NCBI GenBank assembly: GCA_022483015.1
Contig: JAKVOB010000001.1
Coordinates: 1,636,902-1,700,901 of the forward strand
Direction of reading: 5' to 3'
Source of the DNA: Atopobiaceae bacterium
GTDB taxonomy: Bacteria; Actinomycetota; Coriobacteriia; Coriobacteriales; Atopobiaceae
Length of the DNA: 64,000 bases
The position numbers and the translations under genes were made by a program. Below the pieces are notes generated by a model. It saw only the letters and a list, made by a program, of their open reading frames with translations. It made no database searches and was not told the origin of the DNA. Shown here piece after piece: positions 8,358-49,720 of this stretch. Every line of letters starts with the position of its first letter. Position 1 is the stretch's first letter.

Positions 8358-11285
8358 TCACTCATACAAAGCGAGAATCTGAGGAATCAATGCGTGCCAA
8401 TCACGATTTCGAGCAGTTTCAAGACCGCCCGAGACGAGAACCTGCCTTAGCGCCTCGTCGTTTGCCAGCCTCTCCACTTTCTCAACGCCCCCCTCTATAT
8501 CCCCAAGTTGATAGAGAAGGCAATTGCTTCCATCAATAAGATACTCTGAGTTCCCGTTGTTTAGAGCGGCAACGACAAGTCCGCCGGTGGACATCATCTC
8601 CAAGGGAGGGTAAGAAAAGCTCTCTAGCGAGCTCGTCTTGAGAAGGATGTGGCATTGCGAGTAGACCTCGGGGACTCTCTGATGTGGCACATCATGGAAA
8701 TACTTATCGACCTTCCACTCATCCTTTGGACCAGAGCCATATGACATGTACCAAATCTCGAATCGTTCCGGATCGAGTCTAGAGGCGATTTGAAAAGCTT
8801 CCTCGACGTTCTTATGTGGAGACTCTGAGTCGCCCTCTATGAGGACCCTGATCTTGCCTCCCCATGATCGTTCTGATGAAGAGAACAATCCTATGTCAAT
8901 TCCATTTGGTGCAAACAGTGGCTCTCTGTGATAGACCCGTTCAAGCCAGTCCGAGCACCACTTTGAGATGGTGACGTAACCCACGTCATCGCAAGCATAG
9001 GTGGCGTTTGCCCCAAGACGAAAGTCAGACGTATTCGGATAGAACCCGGGTTCCCAATTTTGAACCAAATAAAGCAGTTTCGTAACGTTAGGACAACCCC
9101 TAAGAGGGAGAAGCGTATTCCAAAGCGTCGCTACGGCAATATCGACCTTGCCGCCGAGGAGGGAAGCCGTTGTAACTGAATGGGATGGCCTCATGCGAAT
9201 TACTGGGAACTCATGCCCTTCGAACTCATAGAGGTATGGAATGGGATTTGCATTCTGATAATCGTCGACAACCGTTACATCATATCCGGCATCCTGCAGC
9301 ATGCAGCAGTGTTTTAGTGCAACGAGAGAGCCACCGCTCGTCCAGAGCGACGGCAAAGCCATGAGGACGTTCGTACTCTGGTCAGCCCGAAGAGCAGAAG
9401 CACGTGCAAGAGCCTTATCGGAACAGACTGGGTCGGTCTCCGGAAGCAGAGTACCTAGTTGAGCAGTGCTGAGAGTTGGGCTCTTCCCAGAATCGAGAAT
9501 GCCTATCAACTCGTTGATACCTCGATAGACTCTCTTCTTGAGATTTGAGGCCTTCGAACAAAACGACTCGCAAACATCGTTCATGGGGCCACAGAACAAG
9601 AATGAACGGGCGAGAGCAAGGCACGTTAGGTCGCATTGGGCCTTCGGAACCCTTTGTACGGATACACCTGAAGCGGAAAGCTGGTCGCAGATAAAGCCAA
9701 GGATTTCTTCGTCCTCTTTGCACATGTCGATCTCCTCGAACACAAGAAGATCAAAAAAGGTCGCGTGCGCAGTGAGAGCTGAATAGGTCGAACGGATGTT
9801 GGAACAGGATTGTATCGGGGCGTCAATCCCATCCGAACAGACGAAAGCCCTGTCAATAGTGCCCCGTAGATTCCCGCACGGAGCGTCGCCATGGTAGCGC
9901 GTATATATGATTGCAGCAGATGAGTGGGCTAAGTCTGCGCATCCAGAATCTTCAGCAGGCACGCTAGAACCACAAACGACGAAAGCGTCAATTCCACTGT
10001 TGATGAGATTCTCACAATACTTCGAATACTTCCCGAGCGTTGCGCCATCAACATCATTTCCAAGGAAGTATGCTGCGTTGATATGCCGATGCGAAACAAT
10101 GTACTTGGCAATACTTGAGCCAGTCCCAAGGGTCGTGCAATGCGCCCTACAGAAGTCGCGAGCCCTCTCGCCAATCTCAGTCCGAACACTCTCATTGGTC
10201 ACCAGTAAGTTCAGGGCCTCTCGCCAATCAAGTTCAGTCCGACAGAGTAGGCCGGTCTGCCCGTCATGAATCATCTGCGCAAACGCCCCGATATCGCTGG
10301 CAACTGTAGGCACACCTACAAGTCCTGCCTCGACCCACTTGTTCTCGGACTTAGCCTCGTTGAAGACATTATTCGTCAAGGGAGCGATATTGATATCGCA
10401 ACTTGCGATGAGCCCTGGTAAGTCTCTCCAATCGCAAAAGTCGCGGGTATGGACGCGGCCCGTAAAACCGTCAAGTTCGGATGGAAGATCAAGGTCTCCG
10501 ACAAGAAGAAGCTCGACATTCTCGTGCCTCTCAAGAATGGAAACCAGTGCAGGTAACACCATATTGAAATCATCGTTATGCGTGATGCTACCGCTAAAAT
10601 AGCCTATCGTTACATGGTCCCGATGGGCTTGCCTCAGGCTATATGCGGCATCAGACAGGGCTACCATCTCAGCTGAAGCGACATTACGATTGACAAACAC
10701 ATTAGGCACGAGGCGCCTTAGCCCGTCTGCCATCCCATCGGTAGTGGTGATTGCAGAGCCACACAATTTCAGCAGTCGAGCATAGGACTCGACACCAGCA
10801 TCATAGCTAGCCTTATCTGCCGGTGCCATAGATGCAACATATGGAATCTGATCCGTATAGAACGTATCTATGACGAGATCATCGATATCGAAGTAGACGT
10901 CCTTGTTCAGCTCCTTTGCTCTCCGGACGAAGAGCTCCATATCGGAGGACCATGGACATCGAAAGATGACAAAGGAACGCGCAAGTCCGACGTCTTCCAG
11001 ATGAAGGTCACAAGCATCCAAGGAACAGACGGCAAGCCCAGCGGAACGGAGTTGCTCCACTTGATGATCAACCCTGTACCTTATGGGATGTGGAAGCGTC
11101 CTATCGCATCCGTTGATAAAGAGCACGTCGTAGAAGTTTGGAATGCTGGCCGACTCATGACCAGAGGACAACAGAGGAATGAAGTGCCTTGCTCTCGCCG
11201 TAATGCCAGACCAAGCGATTGACCAAGGGCTCTCATTCTCAAGGCGCTTGCCAAAGCGACTGACTTTTGTGCTGATATAGCCCAT
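8358..11285 (-). CDS. Two-domain family-4-type glycosyltransferase
   Basis: A 975-residue predicted cytoplasmic enzyme with two GT-B type halves. The N-terminal half (about 50-400) has VYFDIDDLV near 131, IGYFSGSITHNDDF near 227 and VELLLVGDLDLP near 257, and closely resembles the protein encoded just upstream (11320-12789). The C-terminal half (about 640-970) shows the GT4 pattern: SLWTSGGSLVALKH, YVTISKWCSDWLERVY and SSLESFSYPPLEMMSTGG (E-x7-E). It resembles enzymes that build rhamnose-type or other wall polysaccharides, but donor and acceptor sugars are unknown. The ATG at 11285 is chosen because GAGG lies 6 nt upstream; the ATG six nt earlier abuts that site. It lies 34 nt after the upstream gene and is AT-rich compared with the core genes. 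Confidence 0.8.
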   Translation of the reverse strand: MGYISTKVSRFGKRLENESPWSIAWSGITARARHFIPLLSSGHESASIPNFYDVLFINGCDRTLPHPIRYRVDHQVEQLRSAGLAVCSLDACDLHLEDVGLARSFVIFRCPWSSDMELFVRRAKELNKDVYFDIDDLVIDTFYTDQIPYVASMAPADKASYDAGVESYARLLKLCGSAITTTDGMADGLRRLVPNVFVNRNVASAEMVALSDAAYSLRQAHRDHVTIGYFSGSITHNDDFNMVLPALVSILERHENVELLLVGDLDLPSELDGFTGRVHTRDFCDWRDLPGLIASCDINIAPLTNNVFNEAKSENKWVEAGLVGVPTVASDIGAFAQMIHDGQTGLLCRTELDWREALNLLVTNESVRTEIGERARDFCRAHCTTLGTGSSIAKYIVSHRHINAAYFLGNDVDGATLGKYSKYCENLINSGIDAFVVCGSSVPAEDSGCADLAHSSAAIIYTRYHGDAPCGNLRGTIDRAFVCSDGIDAPIQSCSNIRSTYSALTAHATFFDLLVFEEIDMCKEDEEILGFICDQLSASGVSVQRVPKAQCDLTCLALARSFLFCGPMNDVCESFCSKASNLKKRVYRGINELIGILDSGKSPTLSTAQLGTLLPETDPVCSDKALARASALRADQSTNVLMALPSLWTSGGSLVALKHCCMLQDAGYDVTVVDDYQNANPIPYLYEFEGHEFPVIRMRPSHSVTTASLLGGKVDIAVATLWNTLLPLRGCPNVTKLLYLVQNWEPGFYPNTSDFRLGANATYACDDVGYVTISKWCSDWLERVYHREPLFAPNGIDIGLFSSSERSWGGKIRVLIEGDSESPHKNVEEAFQIASRLDPERFEIWYMSYGSGPKDEWKVDKYFHDVPHQRVPEVYSQCHILLKTSSLESFSYPPLEMMSTGGLVVAALNNGNSEYLIDGSNCLLYQLGDIEGGVEKVERLANDEALRQVLVSGGLETARNRDWHALIPQILALYE

Positions 11286-11319
11286 ATGCATCCTCGCATC
11301 TATATGTTGAACTAATCGC

Positions 11320-12789
11320 TTATCTGCGGTCGGAAACGGACCTGCCCGCAGGCGTTGCAAACAACGGATTGACCGTAAACGGGTTTCCCCAATCCACATC
11401 TTTGCTAATCAATTCCTCAATTGCGCGCTCTTCCGATAGAGGAACATGATGGATGGGACACTCGCATGCACCTGCAAGAACTTGCTCAATATTTCTCATG
11501 GGCACCGCACCGTAGCGTTCGGAGAGCGCCTTATTCCTAGCAGCCTTACCAATCGAACCGGAGTCCTCTCGATCGGCGAGGCATGACTGAAGGCCTGCAA
11601 TCCAGTCTTGTTCAGACCTGCAGACGAAACCGGACCTTCCATCGTCTATCGCCTCACAGTACGAAGAGACGCTGCTAGCGCAGGTAGGAGTTCCCACAGC
11701 CCCAGCCTCAAAGACCTTAAGCGCGCTCTTGCAGTTTGTAAAATCATCGATTACCAGCGGCGCAAGAGCCACGTCGACGGTCGCCTGCAGCGCTTGAAGG
11801 CACGCCATGTCGACGATAGGCAATCGGATGAGCCTGCCGGCATGTGTGATTTCGTCATAGCTGCTATCTAGTAAGAGGTCGCCAACAATTAAGAGCTGGG
11901 CATTCTCAGCAAGCAAAAATGAGGACAGAGCGCCTGAGAGAATTGAAAAATCACGATCGTGGCTCGCAGTCCCGCTGAAGTACCCGATGGTGAAAGGTTC
12001 GCCCCTACGCTCCCGCCTCGATTCATATAGCTCATTCGATAAGCGAGCCTGTCCTTCGCTCAGAAAGGACCTCAACGTATACGAGGGCTTGTTGTAACGA
12101 GCGCTAAGCAATTCCGTAAGGTATGTAGTGGATCCAATAAAGCAGTCAGAGACCGATGACATGAGCTCGAAACGGTTACAGCACCCGTACCAGAAGGCTA
12201 GCTCCTCGGTGTTCCGCTTATCCCTAACCATGGCATCAATTACCCGCGGGGCAGCAAGCAGTCCGAGGACATCATCATCAACAAGATATGCAATTCGAAT
12301 CAACCGGCCCTTTGCTGCTAACGAAAAAGCCCACACGTCCGGCCGGATGCGCATTCGTATGAGAACAATAAGGTCGACAAGTCCTAGCAGCTCATCTTTT
12401 ACGAGATCAAGCTCTTCGACATAGATGCAAACGGCGTATGAATTCGTAGACAGGCTGAGACACTCAGACACATTCCGTCCAAAGTACCGGAACGTCGCAT
12501 CATCACCAGATTCCCGCTCGTATAACAAGAGCGCGCAGCGCTTACCCTGTCGATGCGCGGCGCGTAGCGCCTCCATCCGATTTGAAATGGAGGGCCAAGA
12601 TAATCCTTCTTCACAATCAAATGGAGCGTGATACCCATACCGAGCAAGCCATCCGTCGACAGATGGCGTGGTATTAATATCGGACGAGGACGCCTCACGC
12701 GTTCTGTGGGCAGTATGTGAGCCGAGAGACGAGATGCAGTTCTTCAGACGGTGATATGGAGAACTATCTGCGGGACGAACTCCTCCCAT
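11320..12789 (-). CDS. Glycosyltransferase (GT4-like), paralogue of the N-half of the neighbouring enzyme
   Basis: 489 residues. The central and C-terminal region aligns by eye with the N-terminal half of the gene downstream: IGYFSGTASHDRDFSILSGAL near 268 and AQLLIVGDLLLDSSYDE near 297 against the equivalent segments there, then KVFEAGAVGTPTCASS and EAIDDGRSGFVCRSEQDW. The segment AYLVDDDVLGLLAAPRV near 167 parallels its VYFDIDDLV. It probably transfers a sugar to a growing surface polysaccharide; specificity cannot be read from sequence. AAGGAG lies 9 nt before the ATG. It is the first gene of a two-gene minus-strand unit diverging from the GT2 pair. Confidence 0.75.
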   Translation of the reverse strand: MGGVRPADSSPYHRLKNCISSLGSHTAHRTREASSSDINTTPSVDGWLARYGYHAPFDCEEGLSWPSISNRMEALRAAHRQGKRCALLLYERESGDDATFRYFGRNVSECLSLSTNSYAVCIYVEELDLVKDELLGLVDLIVLIRMRIRPDVWAFSLAAKGRLIRIAYLVDDDVLGLLAAPRVIDAMVRDKRNTEELAFWYGCCNRFELMSSVSDCFIGSTTYLTELLSARYNKPSYTLRSFLSEGQARLSNELYESRRERRGEPFTIGYFSGTASHDRDFSILSGALSSFLLAENAQLLIVGDLLLDSSYDEITHAGRLIRLPIVDMACLQALQATVDVALAPLVIDDFTNCKSALKVFEAGAVGTPTCASSVSSYCEAIDDGRSGFVCRSEQDWIAGLQSCLADREDSGSIGKAARNKALSERYGAVPMRNIEQVLAGACECPIHHVPLSEERAIEELISKDVDWGNPFTVNPLFATPAGRSVSDRR

Positions 12790-13089
12790 AAGCTGTAACT
12801 CCTTAGCCTCAGTTAGTATAAATCGTGCCTTTAAGGGCTAAATTTCTTTGAGCTCATTCCAATCGGTAACCCATTCATTGCTCAGTATGGCCTAAGCAAG
12901 CTATCACCATTAAGAGAACTATATCTGGCTCGACCCAGATAGCGAGACGAGACCGCGCGAACCTTTCAACATCACACGCCCTCATATGGAATACGAGCAT
13001 ATTCAACCGGACACCTGATCTTCTATCCGGGTGTATTACCATAGCTTGGATGGCATCATGCGAACGACTTGCTAACGCTCTGGAGGAAC
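12790..13089. promoter_or_regulatory. Divergent promoter region of the glycosyltransferase locus
   Basis: This 300-bp gap between divergent gene pairs has no convincing gene. It is AT-rich. On the minus strand TATACT (12820-12815), about 30 nt upstream of the GT4 start, is a good -10 without a clear -35. On the plus strand TTGCTC (12878-12883) and CTATCA (12901-12906), 17 nt apart, are a weak promoter candidate, leaving a leader of about 180 nt. A 20-bp inverted repeat lies at 12922-12941. Confidence 0.45.
12922..12941. repeat. Inverted repeat (candidate operator or leader hairpin)
   Basis: TATCTGG (12922-12928) and CCAGATA (12935-12941) are perfect complements around CTCGAC. It is centred in the divergent gap of the glycosyltransferase locus, a position suited to an operator, or to a stem-loop in the 5' leader of the plus-strand gene. 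Confidence 0.4.
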
Positions 13090-15552
13090 ATGTCAGCAAA
13101 CGATAACGTCAAGCTAGATAATACTTCATACCTAAAGTTCGGTAGCCTCATTCGCGGTGATGGAAAGATATTTCAACAGGTTATAGCTAATCTACCGCAG
13201 GGTAGCCGCCTTATTAGCAATGCGAAGACAGCTGGCGAGAGTCCCACGCCCCTGCCTTCGCTCATCATAGAACGCGACGCAGCCAAAACCAGCTACGTTC
13301 TCATTCTGGCCATTCTATCTGTTCCCCAGGATGTAACGATCACTGTCGTTGATGAGAGCAATGAGACGATTTCGAGTTATCAGGAAACTCTAAGTCCAAG
13401 GACGACGAAGCTCGTGGGTCGTCTCAATACGATCAACAAGAGCAGAGTGGTCGAACTTAGAAATTGCGACAGAGAGGCTCTCCCGCATTCAGCACGGCTA
13501 TCTGTCAACAACATTATCAATGATGCTAATGACCAGGATATTGTATGGGGAGAGGCCACCTTTGACGTCTTTACCGATGCTGAGCGGCAGGCTCGGGTGC
13601 ACATGCACATCCTTGGATCAGACGGTCAAGAGATTTCAAGCGAGCCATGCATCATTCTTCGCGACAGCTGTGATTGCATGCATGAGTTTCCAAACGTCTA
13701 TCTAAGGACAATCCAATACTCCATCAGGATCCCCTCCAAGACGGAGTCTTTCATAGTCTGGGCTGAATCTGATTCACCGCTTCCCGATGGTATGGTGTGC
13801 GTGCAGCCTGATTGGGCAGCAAACCTCCGGAAAGACTGGCATGCCATGACGGATGGAGCGATGCTCGACCCCGACTATAATGATTGGTTCATACATAATC
13901 ACCGATCGAATCCTCGCTCAATCAGCCTCCAGCGCACCGTATCGTTTGATATTCAGCCGACCTTTTCGATTGTTGTTCCTCTCTATCACACGCCCCTAAC
14001 GTTCCTTGACGAAATGATTCAGTCCGTACTCTCGCAGACCTATTCAAGATTTGAACTTATCCTTGTGAATTCGACCACAGAAGATCTTGATCTCACATTG
14101 GCGGTGGACAAATATGCCAAATCAGACAAACGTATAAAGGTAATATCGCTCAATACCAATCTCGGGATAACCGAGAACACCAACGCGGGCATCAGATCGG
14201 CAACTGGTGACTTCATAGCGTTTCTCGACCATGATGACATATTGGAGCCGGACATACTCTATCAATATGTTGTAGGAATTAACGAATACCCCACGACGGA
14301 TCTTTTATATTGTGATGAGGACAAGGTCCAGGACGGCGTGTATAGCGCACCGAACCTTAAGCCTGACTTTGATTGGGACCGACTATATAGCTTCAATTAT
14401 GTTTGTCATATGCTTACCGTACGCAGCAGCGTGCTAAATACCCTTGAACTTCCAGGTAGCGAGTTCGACGGAGCACAGGACTATCACATGACGCTCCGAG
14501 TCGCCGAGAAGGCAAGGAACATCTTTCATGCTAGAAAAGTCCTCTACCACTGGCGAATCCACGATGGCTCGGTCGCATCAAACGCCGACGCTAAGAGCTG
14601 GACTTCTGATGCAGGCACTCTAGCTATCCAGACGCATTTTGACCGCATCGGTGTTCATGCGCATGTGACCGCTCGAGACATTTCTCCTAACACATACAAA
14701 GTGAATTACGAGCTCTTTGACAAGCCCCTCATTTCCATAGTCATCCCGAACAAAGATGCTTCAGCGTATCTAAAGCGTTGTCTCGACTCGATATTGCATG
14801 GAACGTCCTACGACAATCTCGAGATCATCGTGGTAGAGAACAACAGCTCAGAGCCAGAGACGTTTGAGTATTATGACCAGGTGGTTAAGGATGATCCTCG
14901 GGTAAAGGTCCTGCGTTACCAGGGGGAGTTCAACTATTCGGCAATCAATAACTGGGCTGTCGACCAATCGACGGGTGAATACGTCATTCTCCTGAATAAC
15001 GACATTAAGGTAATTTCACCCGATTGGATAGAGCAGATGCTCGGTCACTTTCTTGAGAAGCGGGTAGGCATCGTAGGCGCAAAACTATTGTTTCCCGACA
15101 ACACGGTCCAGCATGCAGGAGTGAGGATGCGTCCTGCCGGTCCGAATCACATCTTCCTTCGATATCCGTCCGATATGCCAGGATATCTCTCATATAACCT
15201 CGTATGCCGTCAGTGCTCTGCCGTTACGGGCGCGTGTCTCATGGTAAGTAGAGAAGCATTCGATGACGTCGGAGGTCTTGACGTAGGGTTTAGAGTCGCT
15301 TTCAATGACGTTGATTTTTGCCTGCGCGTCGGAGCTACGGGAAGATCTGTGGTTTGGGAACCAGATGCTCTTCTCTACCACTATGAATCGGTTTCGCGCG
15401 GGCTTGACGATCTAGACAACACTAAGCTACTGCGCCTCAAGAAAGAATCTGGGACGCTTCAATCTAGATGGCCTGAAGGTTTCACCGGTGAAGACCCCTT
15501 CTCAAGCGTCTCGTTTGACTACGAAACGCTCTATTGTGCACTAAGAAAATGA
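13090..15552 (+). CDS. Tandem GT2 glycosyltransferase
   Basis: 820 residues. An N-terminal region (about 1-285), rich in predicted beta strands and not recognised, precedes two GT-A family 2 domains. The first begins at FSIVVPLYHTPLTF (about 292) and has the donor/metal motif FLDHDD near 378-383; the second begins at ISIVIPNKDASAYLKRC and has the LLNNDIK motif. Such two-headed enzymes are common in O-antigen and rhamnan loci, where each domain adds one residue. The ATG at 13090 follows GGAGG closely (3-nt gap); an upstream in-frame TTG at 13069 lacks a site. The gene is visibly AT-rich, unlike its downstream paralogue, with which it overlaps as ATGA. Confidence 0.82.
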   Translation: MSANDNVKLDNTSYLKFGSLIRGDGKIFQQVIANLPQGSRLISNAKTAGESPTPLPSLIIERDAAKTSYVLILAILSVPQDVTITVVDESNETISSYQETLSPRTTKLVGRLNTINKSRVVELRNCDREALPHSARLSVNNIINDANDQDIVWGEATFDVFTDAERQARVHMHILGSDGQEISSEPCIILRDSCDCMHEFPNVYLRTIQYSIRIPSKTESFIVWAESDSPLPDGMVCVQPDWAANLRKDWHAMTDGAMLDPDYNDWFIHNHRSNPRSISLQRTVSFDIQPTFSIVVPLYHTPLTFLDEMIQSVLSQTYSRFELILVNSTTEDLDLTLAVDKYAKSDKRIKVISLNTNLGITENTNAGIRSATGDFIAFLDHDDILEPDILYQYVVGINEYPTTDLLYCDEDKVQDGVYSAPNLKPDFDWDRLYSFNYVCHMLTVRSSVLNTLELPGSEFDGAQDYHMTLRVAEKARNIFHARKVLYHWRIHDGSVASNADAKSWTSDAGTLAIQTHFDRIGVHAHVTARDISPNTYKVNYELFDKPLISIVIPNKDASAYLKRCLDSILHGTSYDNLEIIVVENNSSEPETFEYYDQVVKDDPRVKVLRYQGEFNYSAINNWAVDQSTGEYVILLNNDIKVISPDWIEQMLGHFLEKRVGIVGAKLLFPDNTVQHAGVRMRPAGPNHIFLRYPSDMPGYLSYNLVCRQCSAVTGACLMVSREAFDDVGGLDVGFRVAFNDVDFCLRVGATGRSVVWEPDALLYHYESVSRGLDDLDNTKLLRLKKESGTLQSRWPEGFTGEDPFSSVSFDYETLYCALRK

Positions 15553-17531
15553 ACTGGTCAGAGTACCCACACGTCGACATCAGGTTCCTCGGCCTCGTCC
15601 CTTCTTCACCGACGTCCGTCATCCTCGACTTCAGGGTCACGGCAAGGGGGCTTGCTCGAGACCTGGTCTGCCTCAGAGCTGGAACCGGCAAGGACTGTCG
15701 CATCGACCTCCCCGTGACCACGCTCAGCGATGAAGAGTCCTCTCGCGGCGTCCGTACCATGGAAGTTACCGTCGAACTCACAGATGGGTTGCTGAACTGC
15801 GTGCTGTCGGCTCATCTGATAGCCCCACATCGAGCCACACGGATCGCCTATCGACTGCTCGAGCCAGATGAGACCAAGGGGCTCGTGGATGATTGGTACC
15901 TTGGCCATGAGGACGCGCTCTCCTCGCCGATGTACCCCGACTGGCTCGAACGGCACAGGACGCCCCAGGAAGATCTCGACCGCGAGCGCGTGGACACGAG
16001 CGAGCTACCATCGCGTCCGCTTATAAGTATCGTGACCCCTGTGTATCGGACCCCTCCTGCATACCTCAGGGCCATGATCGACTCGGTCTTGGGCCAGACC
16101 TACGACAACTTCGAGCTCATCCTCGCCAATGCCAGCGGTGAGTGCCGAGAGGTCGACTCCGTTCTCGCCTCGTATCATGATGCGAGGCTCCGTATCCTCA
16201 CCATCGAGAACCGGTCGATCTCGGAGAACACGAACGCGGCAATAGCCGAGTCCGAGGGCGACTATGTGGGCTTCGTCGACCACGATGACCTCCTGGAGCC
16301 CGACTGCCTCTATCGTTACGTCGAGGAGATCGACGCTCGTCCACAGGCGGACCTGCTCTTCTGTGACGAGGACCTCGTGAGGGAGCCTGCCCCCGCCGGG
16401 GGCGAGACGTCCCACGTCGACTCCCTCGACGGTCTGGTGCACTTCTGCGCCAAGTTCAAGCCAGGCTGGAACCCCGACCTCATCATGACCCACAACTATG
16501 CCTGCCACCTCCTTATGGTGAGCAGAAGGGCCCTCGAGCTCACGGAACGTTCCGGAGCGGACGTCACAGGCGCACAGGACTACGATCTCGCATTCAAGGC
16601 AGCTGAGGTCGCACGGGAGGTCGTCTGCATACCTCGCGTGCTCTACCACTGGCGTGACCACCCAGCGTCCATCGCGACGAACCGGGACAGCAAACCGTAC
16701 GCATTCGAAGCGGGTCGACTTGCCATCCAACGACATCTCGGGAGGGAAGGCATCGAGGCAACGGTCGGAGAGGGGAGCTTCCCCCTCTCGTATAGGGTGC
16801 ACTACAAGCAATCGGAGCAGGCCATCGGAGTCATCTGCTACGGCGAGCGCTCGTCTGAGACCGCCGATGCACTTCGTTCGGGGAAGCTCGCAGACGAGTC
16901 GACGGTCATCCATGTGCCAGACCTTGACCATGCGCATGATGCCATGGCGCGCATGGAATCCGACATAGTCGTGCTGGTCTCAGACCGATGCCACGGGTTC
17001 GCCGATGGGTGGCTTGACGAGTTGACCGCTCCCCTCGCACGAAGGGATGACATAGCGATGGTCGCACCTGAGCTCCTCGCCGAGGATGGGACCGTGGCCT
17101 CCCACGGTCTCACCGTGTGCCCAGACGGGTCGCTCACCAGTGCCGAGCAGGGACTTCCGAGAGGACTTTCCGGTTACATGACCTACCTCTGTCATGCACG
17201 CGACGTCAATGCCGTAGCAGGTGCCGTCGTGGCACTGAGGAGGGATGACTACGTTGCGGGCGACGGATTCACAGGTGACCTGCCAGACGAGCTGCGCATC
17301 CCCGACCTCAGCCTCACCTTGGCCGATGCCGGGTCGCTCGTCATGGTCGAGCCCTATGGCCCCGTGACCGTATGCCAGGAAGCGAATGGCCCATCGCCAT
17401 ACGCCTGCCCGCAGGTCTCGGGGAGCTCACGCCATCTGCTCCTTTCGCGGCATCCGGGAATGCGGCAAGGAGACCGTTGGCTCGACCCTGCCATTGACCC
17501 CACGAGCCCATCCTTCGACCTGTCACGTTAG
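15549..17531 (+). CDS. GT2 glycosyltransferase with a degenerate second domain
   Basis: 660 residues, paralogous to the preceding gene along its length: beta-rich N-terminus (about 1-150), GT2 domain from ISIVTPVYRTPPAYL (about 159) with FVDHDD at 243-248, and the shared GAQDYDLAFKAAE and RVLYHWRDHPAS segments. The second GT2 half (about 425-600) is diverged: where the paralogue has LLNND this has VLVSDRC, so donor binding may be lost there. Its ATG overlaps the preceding TGA (ATGA), so translation is probably coupled. GC content is core-genome-like, in contrast to the overlapping neighbour. The sugar specificity is unknown. Confidence 0.8.
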   Translation: MNWSEYPHVDIRFLGLVPSSPTSVILDFRVTARGLARDLVCLRAGTGKDCRIDLPVTTLSDEESSRGVRTMEVTVELTDGLLNCVLSAHLIAPHRATRIAYRLLEPDETKGLVDDWYLGHEDALSSPMYPDWLERHRTPQEDLDRERVDTSELPSRPLISIVTPVYRTPPAYLRAMIDSVLGQTYDNFELILANASGECREVDSVLASYHDARLRILTIENRSISENTNAAIAESEGDYVGFVDHDDLLEPDCLYRYVEEIDARPQADLLFCDEDLVREPAPAGGETSHVDSLDGLVHFCAKFKPGWNPDLIMTHNYACHLLMVSRRALELTERSGADVTGAQDYDLAFKAAEVAREVVCIPRVLYHWRDHPASIATNRDSKPYAFEAGRLAIQRHLGREGIEATVGEGSFPLSYRVHYKQSEQAIGVICYGERSSETADALRSGKLADESTVIHVPDLDHAHDAMARMESDIVVLVSDRCHGFADGWLDELTAPLARRDDIAMVAPELLAEDGTVASHGLTVCPDGSLTSAEQGLPRGLSGYMTYLCHARDVNAVAGAVVALRRDDYVAGDGFTGDLPDELRIPDLSLTLADAGSLVMVEPYGPVTVCQEANGPSPYACPQVSGSSRHLLLSRHPGMRQGDRWLDPAIDPTSPSFDLSR

Positions 17532-44371: not shown

Positions 44372-46195
44372 TCAATCGGACGAGCCCACACCAAGGCTCT
44401 CCCGCCAGAAGGCCTCGCTCTCAAGCATCGGTGCAGCCTCGTGCCATGAGTTCGCGATGTCATCGCCATCCTCACGCATCTTGCCCGTGAGAAGGTCATA
44501 ACGGGACCGCAGCGCCTTCCACCTGTCCTTGTCCATGACGCGGACGTGCCCGTTCTCGCCCGAGGCGTCGTAGGCAACGAGAACCTTCCTCAGCAGGGTG
44601 CGGCGCGCGGGGTAGGCACCTCGACAGTAGTAGACGGCTGCGGGGCGCTCACGAAGCAGGAAACCCGGAGCCGCATGCCGATCGTGAGGCATCATCTCGA
44701 GCACCTTGAAGGCCATCGGATTCGACGGGGCGTTGTCCCCAAGCATGGAGGGATCCGCGGGGGCCTTCGCGACGACGCGCTTGTCCAGCTCTGAGACGGG
44801 CACCAGCTTCTCGTTCTTGGAACCCTCGCGCCGCATGACCTCATCGCCTGGGACCGAGATGAGGCGGTCGGGCCCTGCAAGGTAGTCCTCGAGCCCGTCG
44901 AGCATGATCTCACAGGTCTCGTAGGCCATGGCCCGCAGGTAGATATGGAAGGTGCGCGAGAAGCGCATCATAAACGGCCGCACGCAGTCCAGTGAGTCCG
45001 CCGCGCACATGATGAGGAAGTTCCTGGTGTACTGGTACTGGTCGACCGAGGCGCGGATCCTCCCCTCGAACTGCTCGTGCCACACGCAGATGCCGCCCAT
45101 GGTCATATACGTCGGCTTGCAGCGAATTCCGTATTCGACGTCATCACACCGCACGAACATCGGAAGCGGAAGGCCGTGGGCGCGAATTGCAGAGGTCGGT
45201 ATGCAGCTGTACCACCAGGCACCATAGGCGGACTCGACCTCTACGTCGACGAGCTCGTTCGCGATGACGTCGCGAGGGTCGCTCATGTCCATGTTCTTCT
45301 TGACCCTGGCGTACTTCCCGGACTTCAGCACCTGGGAGACGTCCTCGAACTGCACCTGTGGTGAGGCCATGTTGAGCATGGCACCGTTCACGAAGGCACT
45401 GGCATACCGATCGTTCGCGAGCGAGAGCAGGTTGAAGGTCCTCTTGATGCTCTCCGGCAGGACATGGACGTCATCATCCATGAGAAGGACATGGGTGTCC
45501 CCGGAGTCCAGCGCCTCGAGCATCCCTCGGGCGAAACCGCCGGAACCGCCCGTGTTGGCGTTGGGTATCACGGTCACGCCGCCGCCCGAGAGTTCGCCCG
45601 CATCGAGCGTTCGACCGTTGTCGACCACGACCATATGGAAGCCCGAGGAGATGGGCTCAGCGCTCTCGAGGATCTCGCGGCGCACCGAGTCGATGTTGGC
45701 AGTGATGTAGCGTTCCTTCTTGAAGGTCGTGGTACAGAGAGCGAGCCGAACCGGCCTGATGTCAGCGGCATCGAGGGACGTGACGTAGCGCGCCGCATGA
45801 AGCAGGACCGTACCACGCGTGCGGAGCCTGAAGGACGCGAGGGTGCCGCTCAGGTCAGAGAGGTCCACGCGCTCGGTGTGCACCGATCCCGACCCTTCGA
45901 TGTGACGCGACTCGAGCGTGGAGGTCGCGTCGGGTCCCATCTGGATGACGTCCACCTCACATGCGTCCCCCGAGAGCTCGAGCACGAGCTCGAAGGAGGA
46001 GGCGACGGTGTACCGGCGCCACTTCCCGATGGAGAGGGCATTGAGATACGTCGAGAAGTCGACCTCGCCGGCAATGACCAACTCGCCCCCGTCAGGCGAT
46101 GCAGACCCCGTCTCGCAGCGATAGTACAGGTCGGGGCATGTAGCGGCGAAATCGTCTCCGCCGAATAGCACGTTCGCGAGGGTGAACTCGATCAT
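44372..46195 (-). CDS. GlfT2-like galactofuranosyltransferase
   Basis: 607 residues, resembling mycobacterial GlfT2, which polymerises galactofuranose from UDP-Galf. An N-terminal beta-rich domain (about 1-145) precedes a GT-A domain with LCTTTFKKERYI, NANTGGSGGFARGM, metal motif LLMDDDVHV (Asp 240-242), FVRCDDVEYG (Asp 351-352) and CVWHEQFEGR (from 371), then a helical C-terminal domain. This is the GlfT2 arrangement. The ATG at 46195 has AGGA 8 nt upstream. It lies downstream of an ABC exporter and a GT2, which suggests a galactofuranose-containing surface glycan. UDP-galactopyranose mutase (glf) is not in the window. Confidence 0.82.
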   Translation of the reverse strand: MIEFTLANVLFGGDDFAATCPDLYYRCETGSASPDGGELVIAGEVDFSTYLNALSIGKWRRYTVASSFELVLELSGDACEVDVIQMGPDATSTLESRHIEGSGSVHTERVDLSDLSGTLASFRLRTRGTVLLHAARYVTSLDAADIRPVRLALCTTTFKKERYITANIDSVRREILESAEPISSGFHMVVVDNGRTLDAGELSGGGVTVIPNANTGGSGGFARGMLEALDSGDTHVLLMDDDVHVLPESIKRTFNLLSLANDRYASAFVNGAMLNMASPQVQFEDVSQVLKSGKYARVKKNMDMSDPRDVIANELVDVEVESAYGAWWYSCIPTSAIRAHGLPLPMFVRCDDVEYGIRCKPTYMTMGGICVWHEQFEGRIRASVDQYQYTRNFLIMCAADSLDCVRPFMMRFSRTFHIYLRAMAYETCEIMLDGLEDYLAGPDRLISVPGDEVMRREGSKNEKLVPVSELDKRVVAKAPADPSMLGDNAPSNPMAFKVLEMMPHDRHAAPGFLLRERPAAVYYCRGAYPARRTLLRKVLVAYDASGENGHVRVMDKDRWKALRSRYDLLTGKMREDGDDIANSWHEAAPMLESEAFWRESLGVGSSD

Positions 46196-46279
46196 CTCTT
46201 CGTTCCTTTCTTGATGGGACCAGGACCAACCGCCCCAGGGGCCCTTGCCATATCTTCGAGCCACCGAGACGCCAGGCCA

Positions 46280-47368
46280 TCAGGCCTCTCGCTCGGAGGC
46301 GTTTCGTCGAGCGAACAACGAGAGTTGCGAGACGGCGAAGGTCGGACCGTTGCAGCGGAGCGAGTACCAGAGCTCGTCGGCGAGGTTGGCGACGTGTCCC
46401 AGCGAGGAGAGCGATGGCTCAGGATAACCGGTGAGCTCAAAGTACACGTGCTTGAGCCCCGTGCTCACCTCGGGCATATCTCGAACGACGGATGGTTCCA
46501 TCCGACACAGGAGGGCAACCGCAGCCTCATGCAGGGCAGGGTCGTCGATCTGGCCGCTGACGATGGCATATCCCACGTAGTGGAAGCCGACGACATAGAG
46601 TGACTGGAGGACCCCCGTGGTCGAGTGGAGGTCCTGGAGGGTATCAAGCATCTGGTTCCAGCGCACGAAGGAGAGCGCGACGTCACGATGGATCGAGGAG
46701 GACCCTGCGACGTCCTCGCGGTAGTTGTAGAACGGCTCGTCCGTGTATACGATGGAACGCGCGCGGGCACAGGTCTCGACACAGAAGGGCCCGTCGACCC
46801 AACCCGCCCCAGGGGCCTCGATGAGCCGGATCCCATCATCGCCTAGGAAGCCGCGGCGGTACAGGGCGCTCCATATCGAAGGATGCCTCTGGATCAGACC
46901 TGGGCACATCTCCAACGTGAGGGGCTGGGAGCTGAGGTCGAAGCGACGGTAGTAGGCGCAATGGTACCGACGCTCGTCAGGTCCCTCGGCATGGCATATG
47001 CGCCAGTAGGACGACTTCACCATGTCGGGAAGGCCATATCTCAGACCAAGCTGGAAGAGGTCATCGTACATATGGGGCTCGACCCAGTCATCCGGCTCGA
47101 GGATCCCTACGTACGTTCCCCTCGCCTCCGAGAAGCCCCTGTTGACCGAGGCCCCATATCCCTGATTGTGCTTATTGATGACCCGCACGCGCTTGTCACG
47201 TGCGGCATGCTCCTGCATGACGGCAAGGGACCCATCCGTGGACCCATCGTTGACGGCGAGGATCTCAAGGGAGCACCGGTCGTTCTGCTCGGCCGAGGAC
47301 AGCGCCTGATCGAGATAGGCCTCGGTGTTGTAGCAAGGCACGACGACCGTGACGTCGACGTCACTCAT
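46280..47368 (-). CDS. Family 2 glycosyltransferase
   Basis: 362 residues. The GT-A domain begins VTVVVPCYNTEAYLDQALSS near residue 5, with ILAVNDGSTDGS and the metal motif ILEPDDWVEP near 90; later RAVF-like segments hold SIWSALYRRGFL and WVDGPFCVETC. It probably transfers a sugar in assembling the glycan exported by the adjacent ABC transporter. The ATG at 47368 overlaps the transporter ATPase stop by 8 nt; a longer upstream frame is an antiphase reading of that gene. The sugar is unknown. An 84-bp gap precedes the next gene. Confidence 0.85.
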   Translation of the reverse strand: MSDVDVTVVVPCYNTEAYLDQALSSAEQNDRCSLEILAVNDGSTDGSLAVMQEHAARDKRVRVINKHNQGYGASVNRGFSEARGTYVGILEPDDWVEPHMYDDLFQLGLRYGLPDMVKSSYWRICHAEGPDERRYHCAYYRRFDLSSQPLTLEMCPGLIQRHPSIWSALYRRGFLGDDGIRLIEAPGAGWVDGPFCVETCARARSIVYTDEPFYNYREDVAGSSSIHRDVALSFVRWNQMLDTLQDLHSTTGVLQSLYVVGFHYVGYAIVSGQIDDPALHEAAVALLCRMEPSVVRDMPEVSTGLKHVYFELTGYPEPSLSSLGHVANLADELWYSLRCNGPTFAVSQLSLFARRNASEREA

Positions 47369-48248
47369 CGGTCTCGCTGCTGTCGTCCACGTCCTTGGTG
47401 ACGAGGCCGTTCTCCTCGGCCTTCTGGGCCTCTTCGATCTGCCTGCCCATGTTGCGATAGGCTTCGCAGACCTCATCGGTCGGCCCGACCATGCGCTGAT
47501 GGCCCTTCTCGATCCAGCAGACGCGGTCGCACATCCGCTCGACGAGGTCGATGCTGTGGCTCACCAGCAGGACGGTCACGTTATTGGAGTCGACGAGCTC
47601 CTTGATGCGTCGCTCGCACTTCTGCTGGAAGATGAAGTCGCCCACCGACAGAGCCTCGTCCACGATCAAGATGTCGGGCTCGGTCACCGTGGCGATGGCA
47701 AAGGCGATTCGTGCGACCATGCCGCTCGAATAGTTCTTGAGCGGCATCTCCATGAACTCCCCGAGCTCGGCGAACTCGACAATCTGGTCGAAGCGCGAAT
47801 CGATGAAGTCCTTCGAATAGCCGAGGAGCGCCCCGTTCAGATAGATGTTCTCGGTCGCAGTGAGCTCCATGTCGAAACCGGCACCGAGCTCGATCAGCGG
47901 CGCGATGGAACCCACGACCGTGCAGGTTCCCTTCGATGCCTCCAGGACACCGGCAATGATCTTGAGCATGGTCGACTTGCCGCTGCCGTTGGTCCCGACG
48001 AGTCCGAAGGCCTCTCCCCTGTGCACCTTGAAGTCGATGTGCTCGAGGGCCTTGAACTCCTTGAAGAGCAGGTCATGCTTGGCGATGTGGACGAAGTACT
48101 CCTTCAGGGAGTTCAACTGCTCGGAGGCGATGTTGAACACCATCGTGACGTCATCGACGTCGATGACGACCGGCGAGTCCTCCGAGGGAAGCGAAGGCCG
48201 CATGAGGTTGCGTCCCGAACCCGCCGCACTGTCCTGTGAGATGTACAA
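47361..48248 (-). CDS. Polysaccharide ABC exporter, ATP-binding protein (Wzt/TagH-like)
   Basis: 295 residues. Walker A GTNGSGKST at 85-93, signature YSSGMVARIAFA, Walker B ILIVDEALSVGD and H-loop SHSIDL. The APLIELGAGFDMELTATENIYLNG segment marks the polysaccharide/teichoic acid exporter subfamily. The C-terminus ends soon after the nucleotide-binding domain, so there is no glycan-binding domain of the Wzt type. The start is TTG at 48248, chosen because GGGGGG lies 4 nt upstream; an ATG 15 codons later lacks a site. It follows the permease gene by 15 nt. Confidence 0.9.
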   Translation of the reverse strand: MYISQDSAAGSGRNLMRPSLPSEDSPVVIDVDDVTMVFNIASEQLNSLKEYFVHIAKHDLLFKEFKALEHIDFKVHRGEAFGLVGTNGSGKSTMLKIIAGVLEASKGTCTVVGSIAPLIELGAGFDMELTATENIYLNGALLGYSKDFIDSRFDQIVEFAELGEFMEMPLKNYSSGMVARIAFAIATVTEPDILIVDEALSVGDFIFQQKCERRIKELVDSNNVTVLLVSHSIDLVERMCDRVCWIEKGHQRMVGPTDEVCEAYRNMGRQIEEAQKAEENGLVTKDVDDSSETDE

Positions 48249-48263: not shown

Positions 48264-49436
48264 CTAGATGTAGAGGATGAAACGGTGCTCGTTCTTGCGG
48301 AAGATGAGGTACCCGATGAGAAGGGCGCCGACCGCACAGCCCGCACAGATGAGGTTCGCATGCAGGGATGGCCAGACGCCGTTCAAAAGGATGTCACGGA
48401 AATAGGTGACGTAGTGGTACATGGGGTTGAACATCTCGAACCTCTGCATGAAGTCGGGGAGGATCGAGATGGTGTAGAAGAGCGGCGTGAGATAGGTCCA
48501 TGCCGTGACCACGACGCCCCACAGGTGCATGACGTCGCGGAAGAAGACCGAGAGGGCCGAAAGCGCAAGCGAGAGGCCGGCACAGAAGACCATGAGATAG
48601 AGGAGGGCCAGGGGGAACAGCACGATGGTGGCCGTCGGCGCGATCTGGAACCACAGCATGACGATGATGACGGCGATCATGGAGAAGGCAAAGTTCACAC
48701 AGGCGAACAGGACCTTCTCGATCGGGAAGACGTAACGGTTGATCTTGACCTTCTTGAGCAGCGATGCCGCATTGATGATCGAGCTCATGCCCTGGTTGGT
48801 CGAGTCGGTCATGACCTGGAAGACGGTGTTGCCGATGATGAGGTAGAGCGGGAAGCACTTGACCGTGTCAGAGCCGACCTTCATGAAGCTCGAGAAGACC
48901 AGTGCCATGACGCACATCATGAGCAGTGGGTTGAGGACGCTCCACAGGACGCCGAGCACGCTCCTGCGATACTTGAGCTTGAAGTCCTTGCCGACGAGCT
49001 GCCTGAGAATGAAGCCATCCCGCTTCGCTGGGGTGTTCCACGCCCGCTTGGCCCATCCGTCAGCCACCGTGAGCGTGCCACGCACGGTCTGGTTGGCCTC
49101 CGAACCGACCTTCTCCCCCGGTTCTACCACCTCGCAGGAGAGCTCGTAGGAGCCCGCGCGAGGAGGAAGGAACGTGAAGCAGTTCTCAATGGTGGGATGG
49201 TTCGAGAGGAACATGTTCGACGCGAAGTCACCAAGCGTCGACCAGGTGAAGTTATAGGACGCGCCCTCTGGCACCTCAGGAAGGTCGACGCTCATGGTGA
49301 CGGGTTGGCCTACCGTCGCACCGCCCCTGCGCTCGACCCTTATGGACGCCCGGGAAGGGTCGGCCTCGTCGCCTTCGTCTCCCGCGACGGCCGCAACCGC
49401 TGCTGGGCCCTTCGCGCTCTGAGTCATTGAATCCAA
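48264..49436 (-). CDS. Polysaccharide ABC exporter permease with N-terminal beta-sandwich-like domain
   Basis: 390 residues, well above the ~260-280 usual for Wzm/TagG permeases. Residues about 160-385 are the ABC-2 membrane domain with six hydrophobic segments and signatures such as LKYRRSVLGVLWSVLNPLL and FFRDVMHLWGVVVTAW. Residues about 30-124 are an extra soluble domain that looks like an Ig/PKD-type beta sandwich (SIRVERRGGATVGQPVTMSV, YNFTWSTLGDFAS, PPRAGSYELSCEVV). Because ABC-2 permeases start in the cytoplasm, this domain should face the ATPase side. TTG at 49436 with AGGAGG 4 nt upstream is preferred; an ATG three codons later is 13 nt away. Confidence 0.85.
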   Translation of the reverse strand: MDSMTQSAKGPAAVAAVAGDEGDEADPSRASIRVERRGGATVGQPVTMSVDLPEVPEGASYNFTWSTLGDFASNMFLSNHPTIENCFTFLPPRAGSYELSCEVVEPGEKVGSEANQTVRGTLTVADGWAKRAWNTPAKRDGFILRQLVGKDFKLKYRRSVLGVLWSVLNPLLMMCVMALVFSSFMKVGSDTVKCFPLYLIIGNTVFQVMTDSTNQGMSSIINAASLLKKVKINRYVFPIEKVLFACVNFAFSMIAVIIVMLWFQIAPTATIVLFPLALLYLMVFCAGLSLALSALSVFFRDVMHLWGVVVTAWTYLTPLFYTISILPDFMQRFEMFNPMYHYVTYFRDILLNGVWPSLHANLICAGCAVGALLIGYLIFRKNEHRFILYI

Positions 49437-49645: not shown

Positions 49646-49720
49646 TCCTCGGTAGCTCAATGGTAGAGCACGCGGCTGTTAACCGCGTTGTTGTAGGTTC
49701 GAGCCCTACCCGAGGAGCCA
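49646..49720 (+). tRNA. tRNA-Asn (anticodon GTT)
   Basis: A full cloverleaf can be folded: acceptor TCCTCGG with CCGAGGA, D arm GCTC..GAGC, anticodon stem CGCGG with CCGCG around CTGTTAA (anticodon GTT), and T arm GTAGG-TTCGAGC-CCTAC. The discriminator is G and the 3' CCA is encoded (49718-49720). It is a single-gene unit with its own promoter and terminator, convergent with rpoD. Confidence 0.96.

Follow-up and report, generated by a model that had tools for sequence, protein, structure and literature searches.

A beta-sandwich domain on the predicted cytoplasmic N-terminus of an Atopobiaceae Wzm/Wzt-type exporter permease: a candidate glycan-engaging module

Glycan checking by ABC exporters is best understood for the C-terminal domain of Wzt, which is missing in many exporters, including the Gram-positive and galactan types. 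Could a domain appended elsewhere on the exporter serve a similar purpose? The question is raised by an exporter locus in the window, by which we mean the whole 64,000-nucleotide stretch of Atopobiaceae DNA analysed here. The first-pass annotation had noted an unusually long permease next to an ATPase without the Wzt tail, and had proposed that substrate reading moved to the permease N-terminus.

The permease gene starts with TTG directly downstream of AGGAGG and encodes 390 aa. Residues 145-350 matched ABC2_membrane (E 4e-18, 66.2 bits against a cut-off of 26.9), and transmembrane helices follow an N-terminal interface helix, as in Wzm/TagG-type ABC-2 (type V) permeases. The alignments with solved Wzm/TarG homologues mostly begin at residues 136-144. 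The permease is present in a single copy in the 2.28-Mb genome (next match in a genome search, E 0.14). In its relatives, an equivalent TTG start is followed by a short variable tail and then by the conserved motif [AG]KDAW..p.KRD; in the window permease about 140 residues precede this motif, which amounts to an insertion of about 115 residues and confirms the extra length. The parts of the gene are as follows.

48264-49436, minus strand: Wzm/TagG-type ABC-2 permease with N-terminal extra domain (PF01061; PDB homologues 6m96, 9qfx, 6jbh)
49062-49349, minus strand: extra domain, residues ~30-125, an Ig/PKD/Y_Y_Y-like beta-sandwich, predicted cytoplasmic (AlphaFold2, hhalign, ATPase-domain profile, Foldseek)
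48966-49055, minus strand: linker with conserved AW..PAKRD motif and interface-helix region (residues 128-157), leading into TM1 (full-length model; motif common to other permeases)
48387-49004, minus strand: ABC2_membrane transmembrane core, residues 145-350 (PF01061, PDB homologues, full-length model)

An AlphaFold2 domain model of residues 26-142, built on a 13-sequence alignment, gave a beta-sandwich with a mean pLDDT of 81.9 and a pTM of 0.72. The full-length model, whose alignment contained only two domain sequences, exhibited the same strands at lower confidence; there the extra domain joins the interface-helix region directly, with helices at 128-132 and 136-157 and then 160-389. A Foldseek search of the PDB returned Ig, FN3 and PKD-like matches. 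The earlier reading of residues ~30-124 as a beta-rich, Ig/PKD-like fold therefore stands. The supposed likeness to Wzt C-terminal domains does not: no Wzt carbohydrate-binding domain (CBD) occurred among the 50 best PDB fold matches of the extra domain. In Pfam, the window domain gave a sub-threshold match to PKD (PF00801, 20.0 bits against a gathering cut-off of 23.5) and no match to Y_Y_Y (PF07495).

On which side of the membrane would such a domain lie? PKD- and Y_Y_Y-like domains are usually extracellular, which speaks for an exported segment facing outside. We nevertheless consider this location very improbable, being contradicted by the cytosolic N-terminus of type V exporters and by the lack of any signal peptide or transmembrane segment ahead of the domain (maximum Kyte-Doolittle value of 0.51 in residues 1-140). 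Solved structures place the N-terminal interface helix of Wzm at the interface with the cytosol, beside the LG loop and the gate helix (PMC6379404). Because that helix is cytosolic and nothing resembling a signal or membrane segment precedes the domain, the latter is predicted to be cytoplasmic. Homologous domains are, moreover, fused to a soluble cytosolic ATPase (see below), which argues against the outside location and independently supports a cytoplasmic job. Overall, sequence and models agree that the extra domain should be cytoplasmic, as had been suggested; by prediction it is neither disordered nor periplasmic.

The genes downstream of the permease on the same strand are listed next.

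47361-48248, minus strand: partner ATPase, Wzt/TagH-type nucleotide-binding domain (NBD), 295 aa, without N-terminal extra domain and without C-terminal CBD (PF00005, E 8e-20)
48165-48209, minus strand: ATPase N-terminal linker NLMRPSLPSEDSPVV, RPxxPSxD segment (sequence comparison)
46280-47476, minus strand: GT2 glycosyltransferase, conserved neighbour (PF00535, E 1e-25; synteny); its real start is probably near 47365
44372-46264, minus strand: GlfT2-like glycosyltransferase, variable neighbour, unlinked to the extra domain (Glft2_N, E 1e-6)

The best PDB match of the partner ATPase was a Wzt NBD (6amx, E 7e-56), and the match to the ATPase-family profile begins only at profile position 81 of 349. 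With the Wzt-type ATPase adjoining the permease, the two form a Wzm/Wzt pair, and as part of the explanation that we prefer they would export a lipid-linked cell-surface glycan in a gut-type actinobacterium. No Wzt_C match was found in the ATPase, which ends 25 aa after the NBD core, so the Wzt C-terminal domain is indeed lacking. However, the examined ATPases of Atopobiaceae and Collinsella lack this tail too, whether or not they have an extra domain, and its absence is therefore no evidence that reading has moved.

The exporter locus is largely syntenic in Atopobiaceae, lying between rpoD and pyrR with the GT2 gene adjoining, whether or not an extra domain is present. We rejected a link with GlfT2: the sister genome G020 has the permease extension and no GlfT2-like gene, and GlfT2 neighbours occur both with and without the ATPase domain, so that the survey suggested earlier revealed no tie. 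Several other observations concern the surroundings. A second GlfT2-like gene, 40% identical, lies elsewhere in the genome (G000:C1:1337918-1339807). On the plus strand, a tRNA-Asn (gtt) gene at 49646-49720 separates the rpoD-like gene from the permease gene. GC content is low across positions 8358-17531 (about 50-52% at 8-16 kb, compared with 64% in the flanks), a region encoding large, multi-module glycosyltransferases: a 1013-aa double GT4, a 489-aa GT4, an 827-aa double GT2 and a 665-aa GT2. This is probably an acquired glycan-assembly cluster and a candidate source of the exported glycan. The TRF-type repeats near 34 kb in the window held nothing of interest.

We then traced the relatives of the extra domain. 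The permease of the sister genome (locus L032) also carries the extension (tblastn, E 3e-13). The window domain matched the N-terminal domains of the relatives' ATPases by tblastn (E ~1e-6), and hhalign aligned the two profiles with a probability of 97% (E 9.5e-11). In a whole-genome search, a profile built from the ATPase domains alone (A2) found the window permease at E 3.6e-8 and the sister permease at E 9.4e-5, placing the domain in the Atopobiaceae ATPase N-terminal domain family. Since the sister has the domain too and the ATPase-only profile finds both, the permease extension is not a chance resemblance, and these searches show it to be homologous to the N-terminal domain of the relatives' partner ATPase. 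Pfam relates these ATPase N-domains to Y_Y_Y and PKD, with Y_Y_Y matching 7 of 16 ATPase homologues (best E 3e-6).

A census of 140 family genomes, read manually from the ATPase profile-search matches, showed how the two positions are distributed. The ATPase was present in 127 genomes and bore the N-terminal domain in 53 of them (three as partial matches). By contrast, the domain sat on the permease in only two of the 140, both from the window's genus. Not one of the 140 genomes had both positions occupied; relatives with the ATPase domain have a permease without it. Among 157 permease loci scanned, only the window and its sister carried the domain. Outside Atopobiaceae, the ATPase N-terminal domain did not appear among the matches listed (to E ~2e-69, in a sample covering part of the phylum). 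Loci in Anaerofilum and Fournierella (L088, L090, L092) seemed at first to match over the full length; we discarded them because the tblastn alignments extended across a stop codon and an rfbC-like gene upstream.

Beside the exporter, the domain recurs, often in tandem, in other Atopobiaceae proteins: with Amidase_3 and Glucosaminidase, with YkuD and either choline-binding modules or CWB2, and in one CHAP protein. These copies are up to ~50% identical to the ATPase domains. With leader-like segments at their N-termini, the proteins are presumably secreted wall enzymes; at eight loci (L162, L163, L166, L167, L168, L170, L172, L174) there are up to five or more repeats per protein. The family's amidases, glucosaminidases and L,D-transpeptidases thus bear homologous PKD/Y_Y_Y (PF00801, PF07495) repeats, mostly in several copies and presumably outside the cell, whereas the window permease has a single copy with a predicted cytoplasmic location. 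In most genomes with the ATPase domain, and in the window's genome, no second copy was seen in a secreted protein.

Where, then, did the permease obtain its domain? The permease and the ATPase may each have captured it separately from the wall-hydrolase repeats of the family, an origin that would fit any of the functions considered. A tree of the ATPase cores unites all ATPase-domain genomes in a single clade (94/94), in which the domain was lost several times; the window's genus (98/91) lies near the family base, outside that clade. In addition, the window domain matches the hydrolase repeats (48.9 bits) as well as the ATPase domains (44.3 bits). The base of the tree is a polytomy, however, so it is compatible both with independent capture and with a single early origin followed by relocation and losses. 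Against separate capture, the window ATPase has retained the RPxxPSxD linker, the segment found behind the extra domain in relatives, although this linker is also present in some domain-free relatives. On balance, we give separate capture even odds. A literal transfer from ATPase to permease was not established, given the polytomy and a domain similarity without preference for an ATPase source; as for the proposal that reading moved to the permease, the ATPase-core tree favours no direction of movement.

The domain has evolved fast. The ATPase N-domains show a median identity of 28% where the NBDs are 80-85% identical, and the permease domains of window and sister are 23-36% identical where the permease cores reach 80%. 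In close pairs, the ATPase domain exhibited purifying selection (dN/dS 0.03-0.22), mostly weaker than that on the NBD. For the permease domain, the window-sister estimate of dN/dS was 0.92, near saturation, a value compatible with relaxed constraint or with replacement. Might the extra domain then be a neutral or decaying insertion without function? Its presence on the permease of two genomes only, together with the low identity and the high, nearly saturated dN/dS between them, would fit such an insertion. Yet window and sister have both kept the open frame, the core motif (W, F.PP..G) and the predicted fold despite their divergence, and the ATPase homologues are under purifying selection, which makes a functionless insertion unlikely. 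Fast divergence combined with purifying selection on the ATPase domain is what would be expected if the domain follows a variable glycan.

A parallel came from Eggerthellaceae. There the orthologous ATPase has no N-terminal domain and often has a C-terminal tail of ~350 aa, in frame with the ATPase core at 25 loci, two of them in other families of the order. The first two Eggerthellaceae tails tested were too diverged for a Pfam call; five tested tails matched CWB2 (PF04122, E 1.5e-8 to 1.7e-20). The CWB2-tailed ATPases, cytosolic proteins, lie among loci L178-L207 (e.g., L191, L193, L199, L206). Known CWB2 proteins are extracellular. In C. difficile, CWB2 modules tie surface proteins to the wall polymer PSII (Willing 2015, as cited in PMC5765458). 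The tail on the Eggerthellaceae ATPase follows the same principle as these Cwp proteins, but differs from the window domain in module, terminus and family. The fusion of this established wall-binding module to a cytosolic ATPase is the strongest circumstantial argument that such appendages engage the substrate. Among the genomes tested, the one clear case of CWB2 on both the ATPase and other proteins was G205: three CWB2 genes on contig 1 (1633593-1638239 and 1654065-1655795) lie ~16-20 kb from the CWB2-tailed exporter ATPase. In most CWB2-ATPase genomes tested no secreted CWB2 protein was found. Since most genomes have no second or secreted copy, we rejected as a general rule the idea that one module recognises one polymer both inside the cell and outside it.

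Taken together, it appears that one exporter has repeatedly received wall-type modules on its cytoplasmic face, where they probably engage the glycan, and that in the window's genus the recipient was the permease. An Ig/PKD/Y_Y_Y-like beta-sandwich of the wall-enzyme type would have been fused to the cytoplasmic N-terminus of the permease, directly before the interface helix. The N-termini of permease and ATPase would both lie close to the cytosolic portal that admits the glycan, and this portal would be the domain's site of action. There it would most likely bind the polymer and raise the local concentration of lipid-linked glycan, as proposed for the Wzt CBD, which recruits substrate (PMC9445017). 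According to evidence cited in that paper, the Wzt CBD works in trans, which would make the position of such a domain flexible. What counts against this reading is that the extra domain is dispensable, since many family members have the exporter alone. We give a probability of roughly 50% to the reading that the domain binds the polymer at the cytosolic portal and recruits it to the channel, a task comparable to the Wzt CBD's but performed by a different module and, in this genus, on the other subunit.

A further point against polymer binding is that Ig-, PKD- and FN3-like domains are often spacers. The main rival sees the domain as a scaffold that docks a glycosyltransferase or another assembly enzyme to the exporter, coupling synthesis and export without touching the glycan. 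Ig/FN3-like folds often mediate protein contacts, a GT2 gene adjoins the exporter pair in the Atopobiaceae loci examined, and contacts between polymerases are known in ABC-dependent pathways (PMC11231755). Nevertheless, the neighbouring GT2 is equally present in domain-free genomes (L033, L049), and a glycan partner would better explain the fast divergence and the recurrence in secreted wall enzymes; we regard scaffolding as possible and the less probable of the two. Polymer binding, our preferred reading, extends to a broader and more tentative proposition: Coriobacteriia would have fitted this exporter repeatedly, on its cytoplasmic side, with wall-protein modules (Y_Y_Y/PKD-like at the N-terminus of ATPase or permease, CWB2 at the C-terminus of the ATPase). 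These modules would serve as glycan readers that can replace one another, equivalent to the Wzt CBD but not bound to one position. Of the original idea of a different solution to substrate reading, the folded cytoplasmic domain and, through the wall enzymes, a plausible link to glycan handling survive; the Wzt-CBD fold, the GlfT2 tie and the missing tail as cause do not.

We found no description of such domain-exporter fusions in the open-access literature, a scope that leaves out most subscription journals. What appears new is the type and the position of the cytosolic domain appended to this Wzm/Wzt exporter. A fast-evolving domain on either subunit, together with CWB2 in a sister family, amounts to a natural experiment on substrate recognition, which becomes testable with small soluble domains.

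How does the pair compare with known exporters? The TagGH/TarGH wall teichoic acid exporters are Gram-positive type V systems related to it in sequence, but the solved TarG/TagG permeases match only the transmembrane part of the window permease and not the extra domain. The CBD-less galactan exporters (mycobacterial Wzm/Wzt; RfbD/RfbE, PDB 9qfx) likewise have a Wzt without C-terminal domain, and we know of no extra folded domain on their Wzm. In NCBIfam, the permease matched a galactan-type model best, and such models also ranked among the closest matches of the ATPase, although both scores lay far below the equivalog cut-offs (NF050109/NF050108, 74.1 against 380 and 197.7 against 400). The CBD-dependent O-antigen exporters (E. 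coli O9a, A. aeolicus, K. pneumoniae O12) share the permease and NBD type and, presumably, the engagement of substrate. In these systems a jelly-roll CBD sits at the C-terminus of Wzt; the window ATPase has no such domain, and the window exporter instead bears, at the N-terminus of Wzm, an Ig/PKD-like domain whose fold, judged by its 50 best PDB matches, is not that of the Wzt CBD.
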